Assembly: GCA_947173485.1 (NCBI GenBank)
Contig: CAMWFH010000005.1
Coordinates: 62,001 to 126,000, forward strand
From: an uncultured Clostridia bacterium
GTDB taxonomy: Bacteria; Bacillota; Clostridia; Oscillospirales; Oscillospiraceae
Length of the DNA stretch: 64,000 bases
Direction: 5' to 3'
This document shows, piece by piece, positions 9,089 through 45,729 of the stretch. How positions within the stretch are numbered: position 1 is the first letter of the stretch; each line of letters starts with the position of its first letter. The position numbers and the translations under genes are program-made. The notes under the pieces are model-generated. The model ran no database searches, had not been told where the DNA came from, and worked only from the letters and a program-made list of their open reading frames with translations.

Positions 9089-12000
9089 ATGCGACGGCTA
9101 ATCAAGCAAGGACTGTCCGCCCTCCTGGCGGTGGTCATGCTGCTGACACTTTGCCCCGCGCCGCCAACCAGGGCGGCAGATGAAACGGCTATAACGATCT
9201 TCCAGAGCAGTGATGGTCATGGGATCTCCACTGCGATGATCGATTCCCGAACATATGGGATCCAACATGCACCTGCTTCCTATGACACGGAAAATGGAAG
9301 GTTTCGTGTATTCTATGAGCTTCGAGATACAAGTGATACGAAAACTCAGCCTGCGCTGAATTTGGCTCTGAAAGATAAGAGCTGGGATTGGTATGACGCT
9401 CCATTTCCCGGTTCGGAAGTTGCAAGTGAAGGGAAATACTATATAGATTTTCCGTTGAAAGATATATCGAGCAGCGGAGATTTTGATATCAGTACTGGCC
9501 TAACGGAGATCGGCATTAAAGTTCCTAACTGGGACAGCAACAGCCATTGTACAGTCGATGTAGCCAGTATCCTTTACTACGCCAGCGAAACGGATGAAAC
9601 GTCTGTAGAACTCGTCTCTGACCAGGGATGGGAACCTACACCTTATGCCAACAATACGGTCAGCAGTACAGGTGAAATTGCTGCGGTAAAGGAACACATC
9701 AACGAGAATGGCTATTTTGCTATTGAGTATCAAGCCGAAAAAGCGGCAAACCTGGCGTTGGTGCTTGAGCCGGACTGGACTACGGTACAGCCGCCGACAG
9801 ATGGAAACGTGGAGATAAGCGCAGGCAGCTATTGCGCAAAGATCCCCCAGTCCAGTTGCGGTGCATATGATTTTACAAAACTTGAAAAAGTGGGGGTCCA
9901 GATCTGGGATAGCGGTGAAGGGATGTCCTCCAGTGTCAAGATCACAAAGATCACCTACAACTATCCTTCGGAAGGCGGCGAGGACCCTGGCCCTAGTCCT
10001 AGCGGCGGCATCCAGCAGGATACCTGGGTCCAAGCTGGAGACTATGCGGAAATACTTGTTCCGGGTGGATATGTTCGTGTTGAGTTCGCAGCAGCAGATG
10101 TTCCAGAGAATATAACACTGGTACTGCAAGGGAATGGAGATGGCTGGTGGGCACCGGTCTCCCCATCGGTGGCGAATGGAACAGTGCGCACAGGTAAAGT
10201 AGAAGGGCAAAGCGGTCTGTGCTATGCAGAGTTTGCATACAGCGACTGTTTAAAAAAGTGGAAAGAGGTAACGGGAGAAGCGGATCTTACGAATATGAGA
10301 AATATTCGTGCCCAAGTGGATAATAGCGACCTTCCTAAAGATATTTCCATCCAATACATCAAAAACGATCCAACACCGCCGCTTGAAGATGGTGTGCTGA
10401 CTACAAACTGCGTTGCTATCGGCACTGCGGTCACTGCCAGCCTGGAGAGCGGTGCGGGCAGCACCTACCAATGGTATCGCGTAGTGGGCAACGCAACTGT
10501 CAAAGGGACGGCGATCTCCGGTGCAACGAGCGCATCCTACACCCCTACAAATGCCGACAAGGGCTTCTGGCTCTACTGTATGATCGATGATAGTATCGCA
10601 GCTGGCCCGGCGGCGGTGGTCGCGTCTAAGACGGCAAAGACTACGGGGATCTTCACCGGCTCGAAGGAGCTGAAAGAGGGAGAGGACAGCCAGCTCTGGG
10701 CGGATCCGTCCTCTAGCTCCTCCTTTAGCGCGGCTATGATCGTACCGGGCGGCTCCTTCCGTATGAAGTGCGATGGTGCCAATACGGGTATAAAGCTGGT
10801 CCTGCGTCCGGGCTGGGAAGAGGTCACCGGTACAGTGGATGGGGGCTATGTAGTCTTTTCTTTCGATGCTGTTGCCACAAAATGGGCACAGAATCTCGGC
10901 AACGTGAAGGAACTCTGCGTCAAGAACACCGGCAGCGCCACGGTCACGATCCAAGCCCTGGAATGGAGCGGGCCTGATATCGGCGTAGAGGAGGCTCCCT
11001 ACCAGCCTACTGACAGCCTGCCCTTCGGGGGAAGTGCTTGGGAGAAGGACTGGATCACCAAGACCGTGACACAGGATGTGGAAAGGCGCCTGCTGACAGC
11101 CACCGTAGCGTATGATGGCGGCGAGTGGAGCGTAGCCCGGATGAAGACCCACTCCGATACCGGCTTTATCGTTGGCTCGAATAACATGGTCTCGCTGAAC
11201 GTCTACATCGAGAAAGCTGCGATGGATGCCGGTAAGGGCGAGATGCTGTTCCAGATCGTCGATTGCAGCTCGGAGTATAAACTGAACACCTCCGGCGAGG
11301 AAAACACCGTTACCGTGGATGGCAGGGCGTACTACCGGACGGCGCTGAATATCCCCGTCACCTTCCCGGCGCAGTTCAACGATCTCATCCTGGCTATCCG
11401 GGGGAAAAACTCCAAATTCAATGGGACGATTCTGGTGGAGAACATTATCCTGCGGGAGAGCGAGGGAGAAAAAACTGTAGAAGTTGCGAAAAACGTACCG
11501 GTCACGGGCGGCACAGCTACAGTAACTGTTTCAAGCAACAAGCCCAGCGCTTTTTATGGCGATGCGGTGAAGGTGACGCTTGCACTGGATGCACAGCCCA
11601 GCGCGGATGTAAAAGTCAGCGCTACCCTCAATAACAAGGTCACAACAGAGGAAGTCACGATCCCCGCCGGTGACTTCAAGCAGGCGGCGGCCCGCTCCTC
11701 TAAATTTGTAGCGACAGCGGAACTGCCTGTTCCCTGCACCGTGGGCCAGGTCGATTCGATCAAGGTCACCACGAGCACAGCCATTGCGGGGATGACCCTG
11801 ACAGAGCTGTCGATCGTCACCAAAAAACCCGTAGTGCCGCCCACTCCCAGCGGCGGTGGCGGCGGTGTACCGGCGCCGGACCTCTCCCAGATCACGGTCA
11901 AGCTGCCCCACACCTGGAGCTTCGACAGCCGCACGGACGGCTGGAAGTATGACAAGGGCTGGAACAACGACTACTCCGGCACGTCCAACACCCAGGCAGA

Positions 12001-20403: not shown

Positions 20404-20479
20404 TGGTGACCCGTCGGGGATTCGAACCCCGGACCCACTGCTTAAAAGGCAGTTGCTCTGCCGACTGAGCTAACGAGTC
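20404..20479 (-). tRNA. tRNA-Lys (TTT)
   Basis: A cloverleaf of 76 nt with CCA encoded. Acceptor arms GACTCGT and ACGGGTC pair with one wobble; the anticodon loop is read from CTGCCTTTTAAGCAG; the T loop is TTCGAAT. It is the last gene of the array. Confidence 0.95.
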
Positions 20480-20482
20480 GAA

Positions 20483-20557
20483 TGGCAGGGATGGCAGGAT
20501 TCGAACCTACGGATGTCGGAGTCAAAGTCCGATGCCTTACCACTTGGCTACACCCCC
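20483..20557 (-). tRNA. tRNA-Gln (TTG)
   Basis: 75 nt with encoded CCA. The anticodon arm is TCGGA-CTTTGAC-TCCGA; the first acceptor pair is a G-U wobble. Only three bases separate it from tRNA-Lys. Confidence 0.93.
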
Positions 20558-20615
20558 GTATAAAGAAGGGGCCCGGGGCCGGGAATCTCTTCCCGATCCC
20601 GAGCGCGCCTGTCTT

Positions 20616-20693
20616 TGGGGTGGGTAATGGGACTCGAACCCACGACACCCGGAACCACAATCCGGTGCTACTACCAACTGAGCTATACCCACC
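20616..20693 (-). tRNA. tRNA-His (GTG)
   Basis: The anticodon arm is CCGGA-TTGTGGT-TCCGG. The extra 5' G (G-1) faces C73, the tRNA-His identity pair, and CCA is encoded. 58 bp of spacer containing a GC-rich stretch separates it from tRNA-Gln. Confidence 0.93.
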
Positions 20694-20733
20694 ACATATG
20701 AACACTGGGGCCTGCCGACGGCGGCCTGACAAA

Positions 20734-20810
20734 TGGCACGCCTGAAGGGATTCGAACCCCTGGCCCACTGCTTAGAAGGCAGTTGCTCTATCCGACTGAG
20801 CTACAGGCGC
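20734..20810 (-). tRNA. tRNA-Arg (TCT)
   Basis: 77 nt with encoded CCA. The anticodon arm is ACTGC-CTTCTAA-GCAGT; acceptor GCGCCTG pairs with CAGGCGT. Confidence 0.94.
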
Positions 20811-20837
20811 GTATCCCTATCCCGTCCGGGGGTCAAG

Positions 20838-20912
20838 TGGAGCGGGTGACGGGAATCGAACCCGCATCCCCAGCTTGGAAGGCTGGTGCCCTGGCCATTG
20901 TGCTACACCCGC
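20838..20912 (-). tRNA. tRNA-Gly (TCC)
   Basis: 75 nt with encoded CCA and discriminator U73. The anticodon arm is CCAGC-CTTCCAA-GCTGG. It is the first gene of the array. Confidence 0.94.
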
Positions 20913-37534: not shown

Positions 37535-38926
37535 TTAGCTCAGGATGCCGTCGCCGGGCATGGGGATGCCCAGATCCTCGGCGTACTTGCGCATCTTCAT
37601 GTACATCTCCACATACTCCTTGCAGGGAGTCAGGGTGGGGATATCGTACAGCTCGGGGAAGGTCAGGCCCTTCGGAGGATCGAACAGGTCGTTCTCGAAC
37701 TTGGGGATGACTTCTTTCACGATGCGGTTGGCATCGGCACGGGTCAGGCCCGCCGCGCCCTTGAACACGGAGGCGTTGTACCAGCACTCGATGGGGGTCA
37801 GGCCGTTCTTCTTCGAGCCGCCGGCGCTGCGGGGGCTGATGGTGAAGGTCTGGCCGGAGGCGGAGGCGGCGGTCATGCCCACGATGGATTCCAGGAAGAA
37901 CATCTCGGTCATGGGGCCGGCCACCTGGTTGATGGTCTTCATCTGGAGGATATTGCTGTTGCGGGTGATGGCCTGGGTCGCGATGGACTGGGTCCACACG
38001 CCGTGGCGGCCGCAGTTGCCCGCGTAGCGGATATCATAGGACGGGGAACCGGGCAGGCCAGCGCCGCACATGGGGTACTGGAGCAGGTCGGTGGCGATGG
38101 AGGCGATCGCGGTGGTCTCGGGACCGCCGGTGTAGCCGCCGATCATGGTGGGGGACTCGCTGCGGACCACGCCGCCCAGCTCATAGGCCACGATGCACTT
38201 GTGCAGGGTGGTGTAGTTGATCTTCAGGGACGCCGGGTTCAGGCACAGGCACAGCTGCGGCTGCTCATAGAGGTTGAAGGCGGCCAGGAAACCGAAATGG
38301 GTGCTGGCGCTGGACACCAGGGAGTTGCCCATGCCCACGCGCCCGGCCCGCCACTGGGCCTCCTTGCGCATATGGTACTCATAGATTCCGGCAAAGGTCT
38401 CATAGGGGGAGTCCGCCAGCAGGGGGCTGCCGAACACGGTATCCAGGGAGGGGCCTTCCTGCATATCGACCAGGCGGCTGCTGACGATGCCCTCCACCAG
38501 GGGGATGTACAGCTCCTCGCTCATCTGGATGGACAGCGGCGCGCAGAAGATGGGGGGACGCTTGTCCTCGGGACGGCGCGCCACCACATGGGTCTGCTCC
38601 GCGCCCTGGCCCACCACGAACTCGGGGGAGTTCTTCTTGAACTCGCGCTCCAACTCGTCGGCATCGATCTTGATCACCGACTCAGTGTCCGGGCAGAAGA
38701 AGCCCAGACGCAGGGCGGCCTCCCAGCCGGCCTTGAAGAAGCGGTCGGCCAGCTCGTCGTCGCAGTTGACGGGGTTATCAGGATCGCAGGTGCCCAGCAG
38801 GCCAAACTCCTTGGCCACTTCCTTCAGGGTCCTGGGGACGATCTTCTGATCCCACTCTTTTTCGGTGACGCGCTCGCCCAGGCGCGCCCGGTCTAATGTC
38901 CTCAGGATCTTTTTTTGCTTCTCCAT
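37535..38926 (-). CDS. MtmB-like methyltransferase lacking pyrrolysine
   Basis: Protein of 463 residues that I recognise as a homologue of monomethylamine methyltransferase MtmB (about 458 residues). Shared features are the N-terminal LDRARLGERVTEKEWD, DRFFKAGWEAALRLGFFC, AGRVGMG, GGYTGGPETTAIASIAT, QVAGPMTEMFFLESI and the C-terminal FPELYDIPTLTPCKEYVEMY. In archaeal MtmB the GMG motif is followed by the amber-encoded pyrrolysine at residue 202. Here that region reads GMGNSLVSS with Ser202, and the frame has no internal TAG. MtmB transfers a methyl group from an N-methyl compound to a corrinoid protein; the cognate corrinoid gene is 48 bp upstream in the same operon. The substrate is therefore probably not methylamine and is unknown. 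Confidence 0.82.
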   Translation of the reverse strand: MEKQKKILRTLDRARLGERVTEKEWDQKIVPRTLKEVAKEFGLLGTCDPDNPVNCDDELADRFFKAGWEAALRLGFFCPDTESVIKIDADELEREFKKNSPEFVVGQGAEQTHVVARRPEDKRPPIFCAPLSIQMSEELYIPLVEGIVSSRLVDMQEGPSLDTVFGSPLLADSPYETFAGIYEYHMRKEAQWRAGRVGMGNSLVSSASTHFGFLAAFNLYEQPQLCLCLNPASLKINYTTLHKCIVAYELGGVVRSESPTMIGGYTGGPETTAIASIATDLLQYPMCGAGLPGSPSYDIRYAGNCGRHGVWTQSIATQAITRNSNILQMKTINQVAGPMTEMFFLESIVGMTAASASGQTFTISPRSAGGSKKNGLTPIECWYNASVFKGAAGLTRADANRIVKEVIPKFENDLFDPPKGLTFPELYDIPTLTPCKEYVEMYMKMRKYAEDLGIPMPGDGILS

Positions 38927-38974
38927 TGATTTGCCTCCCTTATTTCATTCGAGCAACACTCTTGTGTACCGTTC

Positions 38975-39643
38975 TTACACTTCTACGACCAGGGGATCGC
39001 CGGGCTTGTGTACCATGAGCCGGTCGGCCATCTTCACAGACAGGCCGGCGGTGCGGGAATAGCCGTCCGCGCCGATCTTCTCGGCATACTCCGGGCCGAT
39101 GGGGCCGCCGCCTACGGCGATGCGGAACTTATCCCGCTTCCCCTCGTGGGTCAGACGGGTGATCAGCTCTTCCATGTAGTACTGGGATGTGGTGAGCAGG
39201 GAGGAGACCGCGATGATGTCCGCGCCCTCGGCCATAGCGGTGTCGATGAACTTGTTGGTGGGGACGTCGGTGCCCAGGTCCACCACCTCGTAGCCGTTGA
39301 TGGCCAGCTGGGTGGCCACCAGGCTCTTGCCGATGTCGTGGAGATCGCCCTTCGCGCAGCCGATCACGATCTTGCCCTTGAAGGCGCTCTTGCCGCCCTT
39401 GAGGTGGGGGCTGCACAGCTGGATCAGATGCTTCATGCACTCGCCGCCGATCATCAGCTCCGGCAGGAACGCCATCATGTTGTTGAAGTCATCGCCCAGA
39501 CGGTTCAGAGCGGCCACGCCGCCATCCTGGATGATCGCTTCAGGGTCGACGCCGTCAGCCAGCGCCTTTTCTACCAGTTCGACTACCAGATCCTCGTCGC
39601 CGTCATATACGGCTTCCTCGATTTGAGACAAATAGTCCGCCAT
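38975..39643 (-). CDS. Corrinoid (B12-binding) protein, MtmC/MtbC-like
   Basis: Methyl-carrier protein of 222 residues. An N-terminal helical cap (1-85) is followed by a B12-binding Rossmann domain with the cobalt-ligand motif DLHDIG (H102), SSLLTTSQ and GGGPIGPEYAEKIGADGY. The start at 39643 is set by ACAGGAGGT. It would accept the methyl group from the MtmB-like protein and hand it to an MtbA-like enzyme, for which 43321-44667 is the obvious candidate. First gene of a two-gene operon. Confidence 0.92.
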   Translation of the reverse strand: MADYLSQIEEAVYDGDEDLVVELVEKALADGVDPEAIIQDGGVAALNRLGDDFNNMMAFLPELMIGGECMKHLIQLCSPHLKGGKSAFKGKIVIGCAKGDLHDIGKSLVATQLAINGYEVVDLGTDVPTNKFIDTAMAEGADIIAVSSLLTTSQYYMEELITRLTHEGKRDKFRIAVGGGPIGPEYAEKIGADGYSRTAGLSVKMADRLMVHKPGDPLVVEV

Positions 39644-39716
39644 TTCAAAACCTCCTGTCGTTTTTGTTCGGGATATTCGGGCCTGCGCACAGTCAAGTCT
39701 TACAACTGCTGTACTA

Positions 39717-39745
39717 AGCATAGCCTACATTTTGGTAATTGTCAA
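39717..39745 (-). promoter_or_regulatory. Promoter of the corrinoid methyltransferase operon
   Basis: Perfect TTGACA (39740-39745), a 17-bp spacer and TATGCT (39717-39722). The same -10 is used at 43067-43072. Confidence 0.82.
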
Positions 39746-39808
39746 CACTTTTTCTAAAAAACTTTTAGGCGACCTGAAAAAGTTTGTTTACTCTAACAGG
39801 GCACGGGC

Positions 39809-41272
39809 TCATTTCCCGTCCCCGGCGTTGGCCGCCTCATTGGCGACACGCTCCTCCTCCTCGGCCTCCAGGTCGATGGCGTCCTTGGGCAGCACCAGGT
39901 TCAGGATGGTGGCCACGATCGCAGCGGGCACCACGCCGGAGCCGCCAAAGATCAGGGACACGAAGGAGGGAAGGCCCGCCAGTACGGCGCTGTTGGCGCC
40001 GATGGCATACCCCACGCCGATGGCTACCGCCACGATAGTGAAGCTCCGGGAGGTGAAGCGGGACTTGGCGATGATCTGCATACCGCTGACGGAGATGGAG
40101 GCGAACAGCATGGCCGAAGCGCCGCCCAGCACGCTCTGGGGCATGATGGAGATCAGGGCCACCAGCTTAGGCAGGAAGCCGCAGATGACCAGGAAGATCG
40201 CGCCCGTAGAGATTCCGAAGCGGTTGATGGCCTTGGTCATCGCCACCATACCGGAGTTCTGGGTAGCGGAGGTGTTGGGCAGCACGCCGAAGAGCACGGC
40301 GAAGGAGGAGCCAACACCGTCGCACATGATGCCGCCCACCGTCTCACGGTTGGTGGGATTGCGGCCTAAGCCCCCGTTGGCCACGGCGGCCACGTTGCCC
40401 ATGGTGATGACCGTCGTCACCACGAACATGATCGTGATGGGCACGATGGCCTGGAGGTCGAATACCGGCTTTACGGGCAGGAGCTTGGGCAGGGAGAACC
40501 AGCTGGCCTCCGCCACCTTCCCCCAGTTCAGGACCCAGGACTTGGTGACCTCGGTGACCACGCCGGTGGCGGGGTCGGTATACAGAAAGGTCGTGGGCAG
40601 GACCAGTCCCATCAGCGCCGCCAGGATGTAGCCGATGATGATTCCGAAGAAGATGGCCGAATAGCTGGTGACGCCCTTGGTGAAGTGCTTGAAGCCCAGG
40701 ATCACGGCCAGCACCGCCAGGGCCAGGAGCACGTTCTCCACCGAGCCGAAGTCCTTCACGCCGGAGCCGCCGCCGAAGGAGTTGATGCCCACGTTCATCA
40801 GGGACAATCCGATGGTCAGCACCACCGTACCGATGACCACCGGCGGGAAGAAGCGCTGCATCGGCCGCAGGAACAAGCCCAGCACTGCCTCCACCAGGCC
40901 GCCGATCAGCGATGCGCCCAGCAGGGCGGCATAGGCGTTCAGCCCGCCGCCTACGGCCGGCACCACGCTGCCGAAGATCCCCAGGAAGCCGGCCGCCGTG
41001 ACCATAAAGATCGGCAGGCCGCTGCCCACCGGGCCCACGGGATATAGCTGCACGAAGGTGACCACGCCGGCCACCAGCATAGCGTTTTGCAGCAGCGCGA
41101 TCTGCAGCGCACCGCCGGCCTCGATGCCGCACAAGGTGGACAGTACCAGGATCGGCGTCAGGTTGCCCACGAACATGGCCAGCACATGCTGCATACCCAG
41201 TGGCAGCGCCTGGTGCATCGGGAGCCGCCCCTCCAGGGTATAGGGCGTCCCCATTTTCATTTCACGTTTCAT
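39809..41272 (-). CDS. NCS2-family nucleobase permease (xanthine/uracil type), copy 2
   Basis: Membrane transporter of 487 residues with about 14 hydrophobic segments. The NCS2 signature QNSGMVAMTKAINR and the N-terminal LPLGMQHVLAMFVGN are clear. Such proteins import purines or pyrimidines with H+ or Na+. GGAGGT precedes ATG 41272. It is second in an operon with a close paralogue. The next genes in the same direction are the corrinoid methyltransferase pair, so its cargo may be a methylated nucleobase (inference). Confidence 0.88.
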   Translation of the reverse strand: MKREMKMGTPYTLEGRLPMHQALPLGMQHVLAMFVGNLTPILVLSTLCGIEAGGALQIALLQNAMLVAGVVTFVQLYPVGPVGSGLPIFMVTAAGFLGIFGSVVPAVGGGLNAYAALLGASLIGGLVEAVLGLFLRPMQRFFPPVVIGTVVLTIGLSLMNVGINSFGGGSGVKDFGSVENVLLALAVLAVILGFKHFTKGVTSYSAIFFGIIIGYILAALMGLVLPTTFLYTDPATGVVTEVTKSWVLNWGKVAEASWFSLPKLLPVKPVFDLQAIVPITIMFVVTTVITMGNVAAVANGGLGRNPTNRETVGGIMCDGVGSSFAVLFGVLPNTSATQNSGMVAMTKAINRFGISTGAIFLVICGFLPKLVALISIMPQSVLGGASAMLFASISVSGMQIIAKSRFTSRSFTIVAVAIGVGYAIGANSAVLAGLPSFVSLIFGGSGVVPAAIVATILNLVLPKDAIDLEAEEEERVANEAANAGDGK

Positions 41273-41305
41273 GTCGATAAGACCTCCACCTCATGAGACT
41301 GTCTG

Positions 41306-42808
41306 CTACTTCACACTTGCTTGCTTTGCTTTTAGTTCCTTCTCGGCAGCGGCGCTGGCGGCCTCGTCGGCCAGACGCGCCCGCTCCTCCACCTCCAAGT
41401 CCTCCTTGCCCTTGGGCAGGACGGCGTTGAGCAGGATGGCCAGGAACGCGCAGGGGATGATGCCGGAGCCACCCACGACCAGGTTGATGAAATCGGGCAT
41501 ACCGCTCAGAGCCGCGGAATCGGCACCGATGCCATAGCCCAGGCCGATGGCGGCGGCAACGATCACATTGGCACGGGAGGTGAAGCCGCCCTTGGCGATC
41601 AGGTCGATACCGCCGCACAGGATCTGGCCGAACATCATGACCGTAGCGCCGCCCAGCACCGCATTGGGCATGATGGAGACGATGGCCACCAGCTTAGGCA
41701 GGAAGCCGCACAGGATCAGGAAAACGGCGCCGGTGGCCACGGACATCCGGTTGACCACCTTGGTCATGTTCACCAGGCCCACGTTCTGGCTGAAGGTGGT
41801 GTTGGGCAGCACGCCGAAGATGGCAGCACCGCTGGAGCCCAGGGCGTCGCAGAACAGACCGCCGGTCATCTCCTTGTTGGTGACATGACGGCCCAGACCC
41901 ACCTCGGTGATCGCGTTGATGCTGGCCATGCTCTCGATGGTCATGGAGATATAGATCAGGCAGATGGGCAGGATGGCCCGGATATCAAAGCGCAGATGTA
42001 CGGGCATCAGCTTCGGCAGGGACAGCCAGGAGGCCCCCGCCACGGCGCCCCAGTCCAGTGCCCAGGAGGCGGTGACGGCGTTGCCGGCGGCATCGATGAA
42101 GGTGGTGTCCATGGTGGCGGTCATGATGCCGGCCACCACATAGCCCACCGCGATGCCGATGAGCATACTGCAGTTCTGCACCATGCCCTTGCCCCACCGG
42201 TTGAGCACCAGGCTGACGGCAAAGACGATGAAGGCGATCGCCAGGTTCTGGGCGGAGCCGTAGTCGGGCACGCCGGAGCCACCGGCAAAGCTGTTGATGG
42301 CGATGGGGACCAGGGAGATGCCCACGGCCGTCAGCACCGTGCCGATGACCAGGGGTGGGAACAGGGGCTTCACCTTGTCGTAGACGCAGGCGATCACGAT
42401 CTCCACCAGGCCGCCGATGAGCGTTGCGCCCAGGATGGCCTCATAGGACGGGAGCCCGCCTCCCAGCAGGACGGAGACGCTGATGTAGACGCCGATGTAG
42501 CCGGCTGCGGTGCCCATCACGATGGGCAGGCGCGCACCGAATTTCCACACCGGGTAGAGCTGGAGCAGGGTGGTGAGACCGGCCACCATCATGGCATTTT
42601 GCAGGATGGTGACCATCAGCGGGCTGCCGGCCTCGATGCCGCAGAACGCGCAGACGATCAGCGGTGCGGTGATATTGCCCAGGAACATCGCCAGCACATG
42701 CTGCATACCCAAGGGGATCGCTGTCCGCATCGGCAGATAGCCGTCCAGGGTATAGGGGGAACCGAGCGTTTTTTCCTTTTTCAACTGTGTAGACCCTCCT
42801 AAATTCAT
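41306..42808 (-). CDS. NCS2-family nucleobase permease, copy 1
   Basis: Membrane transporter of 500 residues, paralogous to the next gene. Signature: SQNVGLVNMTKVVNR; N-terminal IPLGMQHVLAMFLGN. The start is ambiguous: ATG 42808 has GGAGG at suitable distance, but a TTG at 42784 also follows AGGAGG inside the frame. The C-terminus is a charged Ala/Glu/Lys tail. It is the first gene of a two-permease operon; no convincing promoter is seen upstream. Confidence 0.88.
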   Translation of the reverse strand: MNLGGSTQLKKEKTLGSPYTLDGYLPMRTAIPLGMQHVLAMFLGNITAPLIVCAFCGIEAGSPLMVTILQNAMMVAGLTTLLQLYPVWKFGARLPIVMGTAAGYIGVYISVSVLLGGGLPSYEAILGATLIGGLVEIVIACVYDKVKPLFPPLVIGTVLTAVGISLVPIAINSFAGGSGVPDYGSAQNLAIAFIVFAVSLVLNRWGKGMVQNCSMLIGIAVGYVVAGIMTATMDTTFIDAAGNAVTASWALDWGAVAGASWLSLPKLMPVHLRFDIRAILPICLIYISMTIESMASINAITEVGLGRHVTNKEMTGGLFCDALGSSGAAIFGVLPNTTFSQNVGLVNMTKVVNRMSVATGAVFLILCGFLPKLVAIVSIMPNAVLGGATVMMFGQILCGGIDLIAKGGFTSRANVIVAAAIGLGYGIGADSAALSGMPDFINLVVGGSGIIPCAFLAILLNAVLPKGKEDLEVEERARLADEAASAAAEKELKAKQASVK

Positions 42809-43043
42809 TTACACACGCCTCCAGGACGGGAGGAGCCGGGGCCGGTGTGCCGCCTGCCGCGCCATCCCACAGGGGGCAGGATCCCAGGATCGCTGCGCAC
42901 CTCCTCTTTACCATGATCGTCCGCGCCCAAACGCTCGGCCTGGGCAGGCCGGACATCCATAAAAACGACCAGAGCCGCCCCACAGATCGGGAGCGTCCCG
43001 TTTGGCCGTTTTTGAAAAAACCTCGATCCGACCACAGAAATAC

Positions 43044-43072
43044 TTGACGGATCGGCAAAAATCGGTTATGCT
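43044..43072 (+). promoter_or_regulatory. Promoter for the MtbA-like gene
   Basis: TTGACG (43044-43049), a 17-bp spacer and TATGCT (43067-43072). It gives a leader of about 240 nt before the gene. No known riboswitch was recognised in the leader. The rest of 42809-43043 holds only GC-rich sequence without clear signals. Confidence 0.7.
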
Positions 43073-43203
43073 GATACCTGAGCTGAGATGTACGAGTGTA
43101 CGATCGCACCTTGGCTCGATAGCTGCTCATTGTTATGCATTCTAACAGTTGTCGTGAGAATTGACAATAGAGATTTTGGAAATTCACCAAATTTTGTTAG
43201 GTT

Positions 43204-43219
43204 GCACAAAGATTTGTGC
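43204..43219. promoter_or_regulatory. Palindrome GCACAAA-GA-TTTGTGC in the leader
   Basis: A perfect 7-bp inverted repeat with a two-base centre, followed by a similar half site TTTGCGCAC (43222-43230). A candidate operator roughly 100 bp upstream of the start codon. Confidence 0.45.
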
Positions 43220-43320
43220 GGTTTGCGCACATAATCACCAGGGATACCATGCCAATACATGGCAAATACCCGGCAGATACCCAGAGGAGAACGATACCAT
43301 ATTTGGAGGAGGAAAAACAA

Positions 43321-44667
43321 ATGACCGGAAAAGAACTGATCCAAAAGACCTTGCGGCATGAGGAGACGCCCCGTGTGCCCTGGGTCCCCTTCACCGGCGT
43401 ACACGCCGGTAAGCTGAAGGGCTACACCGCCACCGAGGTCCTCAAGGACGGCGACAAGCTCTTCGACTCCCTGATGGAGGTCCACCGCCTGTATACCCCC
43501 GACGGTATGCCGGTAGCTTTTGACCTCCAGCTGGAGGCGGAGATCCTGGGCTGCAGCCTGATGTGGGCCGATGACAATCCCCCCAGCGTCACCTCTCACC
43601 CCCTGGAGGGCACCGATGAGATCCCCCAGCATCTGGTGGGCCCCAACGATGGGCGCATCCCCCTGGTGCTGGACGTGTGCCGCCGGCTGAAGAAGGCGGT
43701 GGGCGACGACACCGCCATCTACGGCCTGTTCTGCGGTCCCTTCACCCTGGCCTCCCACCTGCGGGGCACGAAGCTGTTCATGGGCATGAAGAAGGACCCG
43801 GCCTATGTGGAGGCCCTGATGGACTACACCTGCCGGGTCGGCATGGCCATGGTGGATATGTACGCCGAGGCCGGCGCCGATGTCATCGCCCCGGTGGATC
43901 CCCTGGTGTCCCAGATCTCTCCCAAGCACTTCGAGGCCTACCTCACCAAGGTCTACACCAAGCTCTTCGATCATATCCGCGAGAAGGGGCTCCAGTCCGC
44001 CTTCTTCGTCTGCGGCAACGCCATGCGCAACCTGGACCTGATGTGCCAGACCAAGCCCGACAGCCTGTCCATCGATGAGAACATCCCCATGAAGGACGCC
44101 AAGGCCATCACCGACAAGTACAACATCGCCATCGGCGGCAACATCCCCCTGACCACGACCATGCTCTTCGGCAACCAGCAGGACAACATGAAGTTCGTGG
44201 TGGATATGATCGACAGCGTGGACCGGCGCAACCTGATCGTTTCCCCCGGCTGCGATATGCCCTATGATATCCCCATCGAGAACACCATCGCTGCCGTGCA
44301 GGCCGTCCACGATGTGGATAAGTATCGGGAGTTGCTGCGGGACTACGAGGGCGGTGCCGATGATGTGGAGATCGAGCTGCCCGACTACGAGCATCTGGAG
44401 CGCCCCCTGGTGGAGGCCTTCACCCTGGATTCCATCGCCTGCGCCGCCTGCACCTATATGTGGGCCTCCGCCTGCGATGCCAAGGAGGCCTATGGCGACA
44501 AGATCGATGTGGTCGAGTACAAGTACACCACCCGCGAAGGCGTGGCCCGCTGCAAGAAGATGGGCGTGAAGAACCTGCCCTCCCTGTATATCAACGGCAA
44601 GCTCTACTATGCCTCCATCATCCCCAGCCGGGACGAGTTCTTCGCTGAGATCGATAAGCTCCTGTAA
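43321..44667 (+). CDS. MtbA/UroD-like methyltransferase fused to a thioredoxin-like domain
   Basis: Protein of 448 residues. Residues 1-345 are a uroporphyrinogen-decarboxylase-fold domain of the methylcobamide:CoM methyltransferase type. C231 (FVCGN) and C311 (SPGCDMP) match the zinc cysteines of the HxC...C motif, but the usual His is Phe229. Residues 363-448 are a thioredoxin-like domain with CAAC (374-377) and the cis-Pro segment NLPSLYINGKLYY. The start at 43321 follows GGAGGAGG; a reading from 43216 would add an untypical leader peptide. Likely role: demethylation of the corrinoid protein encoded at 38975, passing the methyl group to a thiol or folate acceptor (inference). It is divergent from the permease operon. 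Confidence 0.82.
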   Translation: MTGKELIQKTLRHEETPRVPWVPFTGVHAGKLKGYTATEVLKDGDKLFDSLMEVHRLYTPDGMPVAFDLQLEAEILGCSLMWADDNPPSVTSHPLEGTDEIPQHLVGPNDGRIPLVLDVCRRLKKAVGDDTAIYGLFCGPFTLASHLRGTKLFMGMKKDPAYVEALMDYTCRVGMAMVDMYAEAGADVIAPVDPLVSQISPKHFEAYLTKVYTKLFDHIREKGLQSAFFVCGNAMRNLDLMCQTKPDSLSIDENIPMKDAKAITDKYNIAIGGNIPLTTTMLFGNQQDNMKFVVDMIDSVDRRNLIVSPGCDMPYDIPIENTIAAVQAVHDVDKYRELLRDYEGGADDVEIELPDYEHLERPLVEAFTLDSIACAACTYMWASACDAKEAYGDKIDVVEYKYTTREGVARCKKMGVKNLPSLYINGKLYYASIIPSRDEFFAEIDKLL

Positions 44668-44748: not shown

Positions 44749-45678
44749 TCACATGAGGGGGCAGGGGACATGGAAGGCCTGCTCCCAGGCGGTCTCCAGC
44801 TCCTGGTCGAAGTAGTCGGAGCCCTTGCCGATCAGGACCAGGGTCCCCTGGGGCATATGCTCCGGGGCGGGGGCCAGCTCCAGCTGGGAGCAGACGCCGT
44901 CTACGAACAGCGTCCCCTCCTCTGTCACCAGCGTGCCCTTGATCCGCAGGGTCAGCGGGGCGATGGCCTGGCAGAACTGCCGGACCGCCTCCTGCCCCCC
45001 TTGGAGCGGGGGCGTCTCCAGGGTGTAGACCGCCGGACGGTTCCAGGGGGTGTTGCTGGAGTCGCCGGACCGGCCGTGGTTGACCAGGCCCTCCAGCAGC
45101 TCCGCCGGCACATCGGAGTAGGTGGTGCGGTAGACGGCGGCCTCTGGATTGAAGGTCCGCACGGACTGCTGGATCTCCTGGACCTGCTCCTCAGAGACCA
45201 GATCGGTCTTGTTGAGCACGATCAGATCCGCCGTAGCCACCTGGTTCTGGAGGGGCAGCAGCATATCCAGATAGTCCAGGACCGTGGTGCAGTCCACCAG
45301 GCACACCGCGCCCCGGTAGTCGTAGGGCCTGGGGAGATAGGGCGCCAGCCGCTCCAGCACCGCCGGCATAGAGGCCGGGTCGGCCATACCGGAGGCTTCG
45401 ATCAGCAATAGGTCGATGGGGGTGTCGCTGAAGGCCTTCAGGGTCTTGACGAAGCTGTCCTTCAGGCAGGCGCAGAAGATCGAGCCGTTGTTCAGCTCCG
45501 CCATCTGGATGCCATTCCGCTGGAGCAGGGCCCCATCGATGCCCACGCTGCCAAATTCGTTCACCAAAAGGCCAGTCTTCCGGTCCGCGAGGCGCTCCAG
45601 CAGGCGGCGCAGGAAGGTCGTCTTGCCGGCGCCCAGAAAGCCGCTGACCAGATAGAGGGCGATAGGCTGTTGTGTCAT
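44749..45678 (-). CDS. G3E-family GTPase (CobW/COG0523-type)
   Basis: Metal-chaperone-like GTPase of 309 residues. Walker A is GFLGAGKTT (13-21), NKTD gives the guanine-specificity motif, and the metal site CxCC appears as C69-A-C71-L, with the third Cys missing. The CobW C-terminal domain follows. The start at 45678 is set by GGAGGA. It lies downstream of a PadR regulator with a palindrome in between, and is convergent with the MtbA-like gene. It may deliver zinc or cobalt to a nearby metalloenzyme, but family members are diverse. Confidence 0.85.
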   Translation of the reverse strand: MTQQPIALYLVSGFLGAGKTTFLRRLLERLADRKTGLLVNEFGSVGIDGALLQRNGIQMAELNNGSIFCACLKDSFVKTLKAFSDTPIDLLLIEASGMADPASMPAVLERLAPYLPRPYDYRGAVCLVDCTTVLDYLDMLLPLQNQVATADLIVLNKTDLVSEEQVQEIQQSVRTFNPEAAVYRTTYSDVPAELLEGLVNHGRSGDSSNTPWNRPAVYTLETPPLQGGQEAVRQFCQAIAPLTLRIKGTLVTEEGTLFVDGVCSQLELAPAPEHMPQGTLVLIGKGSDYFDQELETAWEQAFHVPCPLM

Positions 45679-45729
45679 AGTGATCCTCCTTTTGGCACAG
45701 GCCCCGCCTGTGCGCTGTGTGTCTCTCAT

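Follow-up and report, generated by a model that had tools for sequence, protein, structure and literature searches.

Which compound is demethylated by a relative of the methylamine methyltransferase MtmB that lacks pyrrolysine and is encoded next to two nucleobase permeases? The question is raised by a locus at positions 37535-44667 of a 64,000-nucleotide (nt) stretch of contig CAMWFH010000005.1 from an uncultured Clostridia bacterium (GCA_947173485.1), which is a gut-type anaerobe. That whole stretch is called the window here, and all positions given without a prefix refer to it. We find that the locus probably encodes a three-component corrinoid methyltransferase for the Co(I)-dependent N-demethylation of a methylated purine, with the product going to purine catabolism and the methyl group to one-carbon (C1) metabolism. 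The gene neighborhoods point to a methylxanthine, methylguanine, methyladenine or close relative as the likely substrate, with methylxanthine being one candidate.

The original prediction had placed five genes at this locus, and all of them are present as described (Table 1), although the gene called MtbA-like turned out to encode something else (see below). The MtmB-like protein has 463 amino acids and is a full-length member of its superfamily, with residues 7-454 covering positions 3-450 of the 450 in PF05369 at 236 bits (gathering score, 25). Its gene contains no in-frame stop and is therefore pyrrolysine-free, as had been claimed, and a serine occupies position 202, where MtmB has pyrrolysine. 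The claimed pairing with a corrinoid protein gene also holds, both genes lying on the minus strand 48 bp apart, and the two permease genes are indeed found upstream in the same direction. The corrinoid protein has the B12-binding and cap domains and the DxHxxG motif of its family, although its score of 175 bits for TIGR02370 is under the cut-off of 215. Both permeases are clear NCS2 proteins (PF00860, 210 and 223 bits; gathering score, 27). In a tree of permeases, permease 1 groups with permeases that have no MtmB linkage, and permease 2 falls in a clade (100% SH-aLRT) with permeases of L012, L008, and L009, in which all the other sampled members are found at MtmB loci.

The purine connection is most explicit at a second locus in the same genome. 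A whole-genome search revealed one further MtmB gene, on contig C2 (locus L012), with a product 44% identical to that of the window. The gene order there is corrinoid protein, MtmB, divergent TetR, RACo-type corrinoid activase, DUF1638, NCS2 permease, XdhA, XdhB, XdhC, and deaminase, with the three Xdh genes encoding the large, FAD, and 2Fe-2S subunits of a xanthine dehydrogenase (XDH). XdhA and XdhB both exceed the NCBIfam equivalog cut-offs (824 versus 780 and 341 versus 310, respectively), and the permease is 70% identical to permease 2 of the window. The genome has five NCS2 genes, of which three are located at its two MtmB loci.

A survey of 398 Bacillota genomes and 400 genomes of the family gave about forty further MtmB loci free of pyrrolysine and ten where an in-frame TAG interrupts the gene; several contigs were short, so that the absence of neighboring genes is uncertain there. 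The MtmB-NCS2 synteny that the original prediction named as its check is seen at the paralogous locus, in two Oscillospiraceae metagenome-assembled genomes (MAGs), and in one Coriobacteriales MAG. The two Oscillospiraceae loci (L008 and L009, 95% identity) carry GntR, NCS2, DUF1638 (read by eye, not by Pfam), corrinoid protein, and MtmB genes, and in the Coriobacteriales locus (L011, 75%) a pterin methyltransferase gene and then an NCS2 permease gene come after the corrinoid/MtmB pair. In a Clostridiales MAG (L010, 78%), the pair is surrounded by two XDH-type complexes, a guanine-deaminase-like gene, TetR, and a PnrA-like binding protein. Seven distinct regulators with the PucR domain, associated with purine catabolism, adjoin MtmB loci (L081, the overlapping stretches L083/L084, L092, L130, L131, L132, and L136), with the L131 match slightly under the gathering score. 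Adenosine deaminase and an NCS1 permease lie beside MtmB in L129, CDA-type deaminases are found in L131, L134, and L136, and the MtmB-linked permease of L130 just exceeds the xanthine-permease cut-off (414.6 versus 414). Other neighbors of pyrrolysine-free MtmB genes include guanine/8-oxoguanine-type deaminases, PnrA/BMP proteins, and purine-type transporters. In one genome (G995; L063-L066 and L129-L136), there are at least 13 matches to MtmB and 24 to molybdenum hydroxylases, and most of the MtmB copies have a PnrA/BMP-like binding protein in their vicinity.

Recurrent linkage with genes for purine uptake and catabolism, as expected of a corrinoid-dependent methyl-purine demethylase, was thus found, and it could be quantified. 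An XDH, NCS2, or purine-type amidohydrolase gene lies within 10 kb of MtmB in 22 of the 30 clade A and B loci (clades defined below) and in 6 of the 7 clade C loci, compared to none of the 10 pyrrolysine loci (Fisher test for A and B versus pyrrolysine loci, p=5e-5). We rejected a purine linkage of all MtmB relatives, since a divergent pyrrolysine-free set showed it in only 1 of 8 loci. Across the 37 pyrrolysine-free loci, from Bacillota and one Coriobacteriales genome, the XDH large subunit occurs within 10 kb in 16 versus 1.5 expected (p=5e-14) and NCS2 in 7 versus 0.9 expected (p=3e-5); counted per genome, XDH or NCS2 linkage is seen in 14 of 20 versus 2.3 expected (p=5e-11), where the expected values derive from how many such genes each genome carries, the observed counts were entered by hand from tables, and the test presumes that genes are placed uniformly and that loci are independent, which related ones are only in part. 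The purine-type genes are co-oriented with MtmB in 69 of 78 cases and opposite in 9. Since the XDH types and gene orders vary by lineage, it is more likely that these clusters were assembled repeatedly than that they descend from a single block.

Phylogeny and active-site residues fit with this picture. Thirty sequences form one clade (support, 100/100) that splits into clade A, which includes the window protein, and clade B, which includes the C2 protein. Nine genomes carry at least one gene of each clade, and within the Bacillota sample the two co-occur in 6 genomes versus 0.2 expected, one of the six being assigned by identity and not by the tree. At position 202, clade A has Ser, Met, or Ala, and clade B has mostly Thr. 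The MtmB residues Glu229, Glu259, Gln333, and Tyr335 correspond to Leu, Glu, Thr, and Asn in the window protein; neither clade keeps Glu229, Gln333, or Tyr335, and Glu259 is retained in part of clade A only. A new polar set has become fixed, with Lys330, Asp298, Arg322, Arg366, Gln318, Trp311, and others invariant or nearly so, and the clades differ from each other at positions 261, 266, 313, and 331, of which 331 corresponds to Gln333 of MtmB. These changes fit a bigger, different substrate with two specificities, and the sister clades may act on different ring positions.

In the mechanism that we propose, the methylated base would be imported by the NCS2 permease(s), perhaps together with an adjoining ABC transporter, and held by the MtmB-like protein in a position where its N-methyl carbon is open to attack by the corrinoid-bound Co(I). 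With the reaction running in the direction of demethylation, the purine would depart as a stabilized anion, and for this reason no pyrrolysine would be needed. The ring NH groups of xanthines are far more acidic than ammonia. The freed purine would then be oxidized and deaminated by XdhABC and the deaminases, whose genes are part of the cluster at the C2 locus and of those in relatives. The methyl group would exit through a second methyltransferase, putatively the URO-D protein here and a pterin methyltransferase in some relatives, and enter C1/Wood-Ljungdahl metabolism, and Co(II) would be reactivated by the RACo-type activase encoded at the C2 locus. The use of the methyl group in C1 metabolism is plausible because the genome has two copies of CdhC (acetyl-CoA synthase) and FTHFS. 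The import of an N-methylated nucleobase and C1 use of its methyl group, as originally predicted, is thus favored by the purine synteny (XDH, deaminases, and PucR, all lacking at pyrrolysine loci) and by CdhC and FTHFS, although the candidate second methyltransferase is not a true MtbA and the substrate is deduced from gene context.

The candidate second methyltransferase deserves a closer look. In the protein encoded by the divergent gene, a thioredoxin-like domain (CAAC) follows the URO-D domain at the C terminus. This fusion protein scores under the curated cut-offs for MtbA (125 of 600), MtaA (133 of 400), and TIGR01463 (151 of 235). The zinc site H-x-C...C reads F-x-C...C in this protein and its close homologues. 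This replacement, together with the thioredoxin-like fusion, shows that the protein is not MtbA, and the loss of the zinc-binding His to Phe means that its reaction may differ from that of MtbA. Fusions that are 58-74% identical to that of the window lie next to other pyrrolysine-free MtmB loci, and homologues with both CAAC and the Phe substitution are found in L068, L076, L083/L084, L086, L093, L095, and L106, all beside pyrrolysine-free MtmB loci except for one near a pyrrolysine MtmB locus. We regard this protein, here called URO-D-Trx, as a candidate second methyltransferase (MTII) or accessory protein.

Several observations weigh against a purine demethylase. The purine evidence within the window comes from the permeases alone, XDH being encoded at the second locus, and both permeases score under the curated cut-off for the xanthine permease PbuX (TIGR03173; 313 and 350 versus 414). 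At some clade A/B loci on long contigs (L085 and L088), genes for NCS2, XDH, and purine deaminases are all missing from the surrounding 10 kb. The methyl acceptor is in doubt, given the missing His of the zinc motif in URO-D-Trx and the gaps in CdhC, which is absent in 5 of 10 genomes tested, so that the methyl sink may vary. An AlphaFold2 model of the window protein, made with four of its relatives, was unusable (pLDDT, 31).

Among other explanations, we consider it unlikely, though it is the strongest competitor, that the enzyme demethylates another N-methyl heterocycle or breakdown product, such as N-methylhydantoin/creatinine, N-methylnicotinate, an N-methylated pyrimidine, or a ring-opened purine fragment, with the purine genes supplying or processing that compound. 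Molybdenum hydroxylases and amidohydrolases are broad families, and individual loci contain a hydantoinase-like amidohydrolase together with a dihydroorotate/dihydropyrimidine-dehydrogenase-like gene (L081) or a QRPTase-family gene (L083). However, XdhA and XdhB exceed the cut-offs for xanthine dehydrogenase, and purines are indicated by each of PucR, adenosine deaminase, the guanine-/8-oxoguanine-deaminase-like enzymes, the permeases of xanthine type, and the PnrA-like binding proteins. A chance neighborhood, with ordinary xanthine permeases next to an unrelated methyltransferase, would account for a window that shows just permeases of a common family, but it is already contradicted by the share of the NCS2 genes of the genome that sits at its MtmB loci and by the family-wide linkage of both NCS2 and XDH, which leaves it hardly credible.

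Two further alternatives build on what is known of the MtmB family. MtqB, the only characterized pyrrolysine-free MtmB that we found, acts on tetramethylammonium and choline (PMC13044021), and the window enzyme might similarly be a quaternary-amine or choline demethylase with incidental permease neighbors. The recurrence of purine synteny far above expectation, and the fact that no betaine or choline genes were recognized in the contexts read, make this improbable. Relatedness to MtmB could also suggest that the substrate is monomethylamine or another simple methylamine freed during the breakdown of methylated purines. This is more improbable still, as pyrrolysine and the surrounding residues are gone and a true pyrrolysine MtmB coexists with pyrrolysine-free ones in one genome (G1174), indicating that the two types are not interchangeable. 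An Actinobacteria-wide survey around G1174 found, besides G1174 itself, pyrrolysine MtmB only.

Several known systems resemble the proposed purine demethylase. The full-length homology to MtmB (PDB 1L2Q/1NTH) is 168 bits, and the two-gene arrangement with the corrinoid protein is the same as for MtmB/MtmC, but these have pyrrolysine, an intact active site, and methylamine genes in place of the purine gene context seen here. MtqBC of Methanococcoides methylutens likewise pairs a pyrrolysine-free member of the MtmB superfamily with a cognate corrinoid protein, but in a methanogen that transfers the methyl group to coenzyme M and with no reported link to purines; the tree of 1,061 MtmB sequences in the same report contains mostly proteins of unknown function, with other pyrrolysine-free MtmBs listed as such (PMC13044021). 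In a culture fermenting dichloromethane, the strongest induction of all proteins was that of a pyrrolysine-free MtmB-family member of unknown function (PMC9768040). MtgB, MtcB, and MtyB of the MttB superfamily work alike, with a pyrrolysine-free MTI, a corrinoid protein, and an MTII that delivers the methyl group to tetrahydrofolate, but they belong to another family (PF06253 versus PF05369 here) and act on other substrates, quaternary amines (PMC8604678, PMC12155760). The chloromethane system CdmBCA is also corrinoid dependent, and its MTI is thought to be a scaffold for Co(I) attack, but that MTI is of the URO-D family and the substrate is a haloalkane (PMC13222342).

The synteny thus narrows the search for substrates of the bacterial pyrrolysine-free MtmB clades to a specific class that can be tested. 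The NdmABC enzymes of Pseudomonas are aerobic caffeine N-demethylases of the Rieske oxygenase type, which depend on O2 and give off formaldehyde. Their net result is the same as that predicted here, with separate enzymes per ring position, and no homology between the two would be expected. It is conceivable, and we put this forward tentatively, that the pyrrolysine-free proteins of clades A, B, and C N-demethylate purines in a B12-dependent and position-specific manner, doing without oxygen what NdmA/B/C do with it, that bacteria with multiple paralogues live largely on methylated purines from the diet or nucleic-acid turnover, and that caffeine-type compounds and methylated nucleobases are thereby processed in the gut by a route not recognized before. 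Our literature search found no corrinoid or oxygen-free enzyme route for methylated purines, although subscription journals were poorly covered and this is not proof of absence. If the proposal is true, it would represent new corrinoid methyltransferase chemistry on the N-methyl amides/imidazoles of purines, anaerobes would have an oxygen-independent way of removing methyl groups from methylxanthines and methylated nucleobases, and it would bear on the gut microbial handling of caffeine, theobromine, theophylline, and RNA-derived methylpurines.

The span of the system was originally drawn too narrowly. Directly after the URO-D-Trx gene follows a block of CobW, PadR, ferredoxin, and ABC transporter genes that recurs at high identity upstream of clade B MtmB loci in two related genomes (G1171 and G1172), where it is followed by a URO-D-Trx gene (product 73-74% identical to that of the window), a deaminase, and XDH. 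Because of this synteny the block probably belongs to the system, which would then extend beyond 44667 to about 49217.

Table 1. Features of the proposed demethylase locus and the adjoining block in the window
Feature	Position	Strand	Basis
Pyrrolysine-free MtmB-family methyltransferase (substrate:corrinoid, MTI), clade A	37535-38926	-	PF05369, tree, active site
Cognate corrinoid protein, motif GDLHDIG	38975-39646	-	PF02310 and PF02607 (both B12-binding domains)
Promoter-like TTGACA-17-TATGCT before corrinoid gene	39745-39717	-	Weak
NCS2 permease 1, xanthine-permease-like	39809-41272	-	PF00860; pbuX 313 bits, under cut-off 414
NCS2 permease 2, of MtmB-linked permease clade	41306-42808	-	PF00860; pbuX 350 bits, under cut-off 414
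Promoter-like TTGACG-17-TATGCT before URO-D gene	43044-43072	+	Weak
URO-D/MtaA-like methyltransferase with C-terminal thioredoxin-like domain	43321-44667	+	PF01208; TIGR01463 under cut-off
CobW-type GTPase, probably part of the system	44749-45729	-	PF02492; CobW homologues also adjoin other MtmB loci
PadR-family regulator, syntenic in L093/L095	45788-46156	-	PF03551; 54-56% identity
Small ferredoxin-like protein, syntenic in L093/L095	46160-46438	-	Fer4 domains; 59-64% identity
ABC transporter permease, syntenic in L093/L095	46451-47365	-	PF00528; 68% identity
ABC transporter ATPase, syntenic in L093/L095	47355-48101	-	56-57% identity
NMT1-like substrate-binding lipoprotein, syntenic in L093/L095	48117-49217	-	PF09084; 72-74% identity

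The divergent URO-D gene had been claimed to share its -10 element with the operon, and both sites do read TATGCT, but promoter-like sites in the region are not more frequent than by chance (4 found versus 2.3 expected from shuffles), and the common -10 is therefore weak evidence. An operator search found no 10-mer common to the regions upstream of the corrinoid and URO-D genes, and an Rfam scan found no riboswitch in the window. The same type of scan revealed two cobalamin riboswitches in L096 (11476-11664 and 14167-14347), where a cobalamin riboswitch directly precedes a same-strand run of CorP, MtmB, Xdh, deaminase, CobW, and DUF1638 genes. Possible operators include a near-palindrome, TGTACGGTCGTACA, before the C2 corrinoid gene (L012, about 11560-11900); the sequence TGTACGAGTGTACGA, which resembles it, in the divergent intergenic region of the window at about 43085-43110; and, in L008 and L009, an inverted repeat, GTGATATTGCA...GCAATATTAC, just upstream of the corrinoid gene and near the GntR gene.

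No relatives were found on viral contigs in a scan with a 12-sequence profile, and a plasmid search gave no match. DUF1638-family genes are found repeatedly at the corrinoid methyltransferase loci (L012:6289-6975, L013:10317-10976, L014:7132-7800, L008:5890-6570, L009:5293-5973, and L096:4315-5001). In L014 (13577-15949), a GntR/UTRA regulator is fused to the corrinoid activase RACo in one frame of 790 amino acids, whereas L013, a close relative, encodes them in two genes that lie next to each other. An MttB-family gene lies within the XDH/MtmB cluster of L074 (19203-19901), so that a second corrinoid methyltransferase family may share the purine setting. Elsewhere in the window, five tRNA genes are clustered on the minus strand at 20407-20912.

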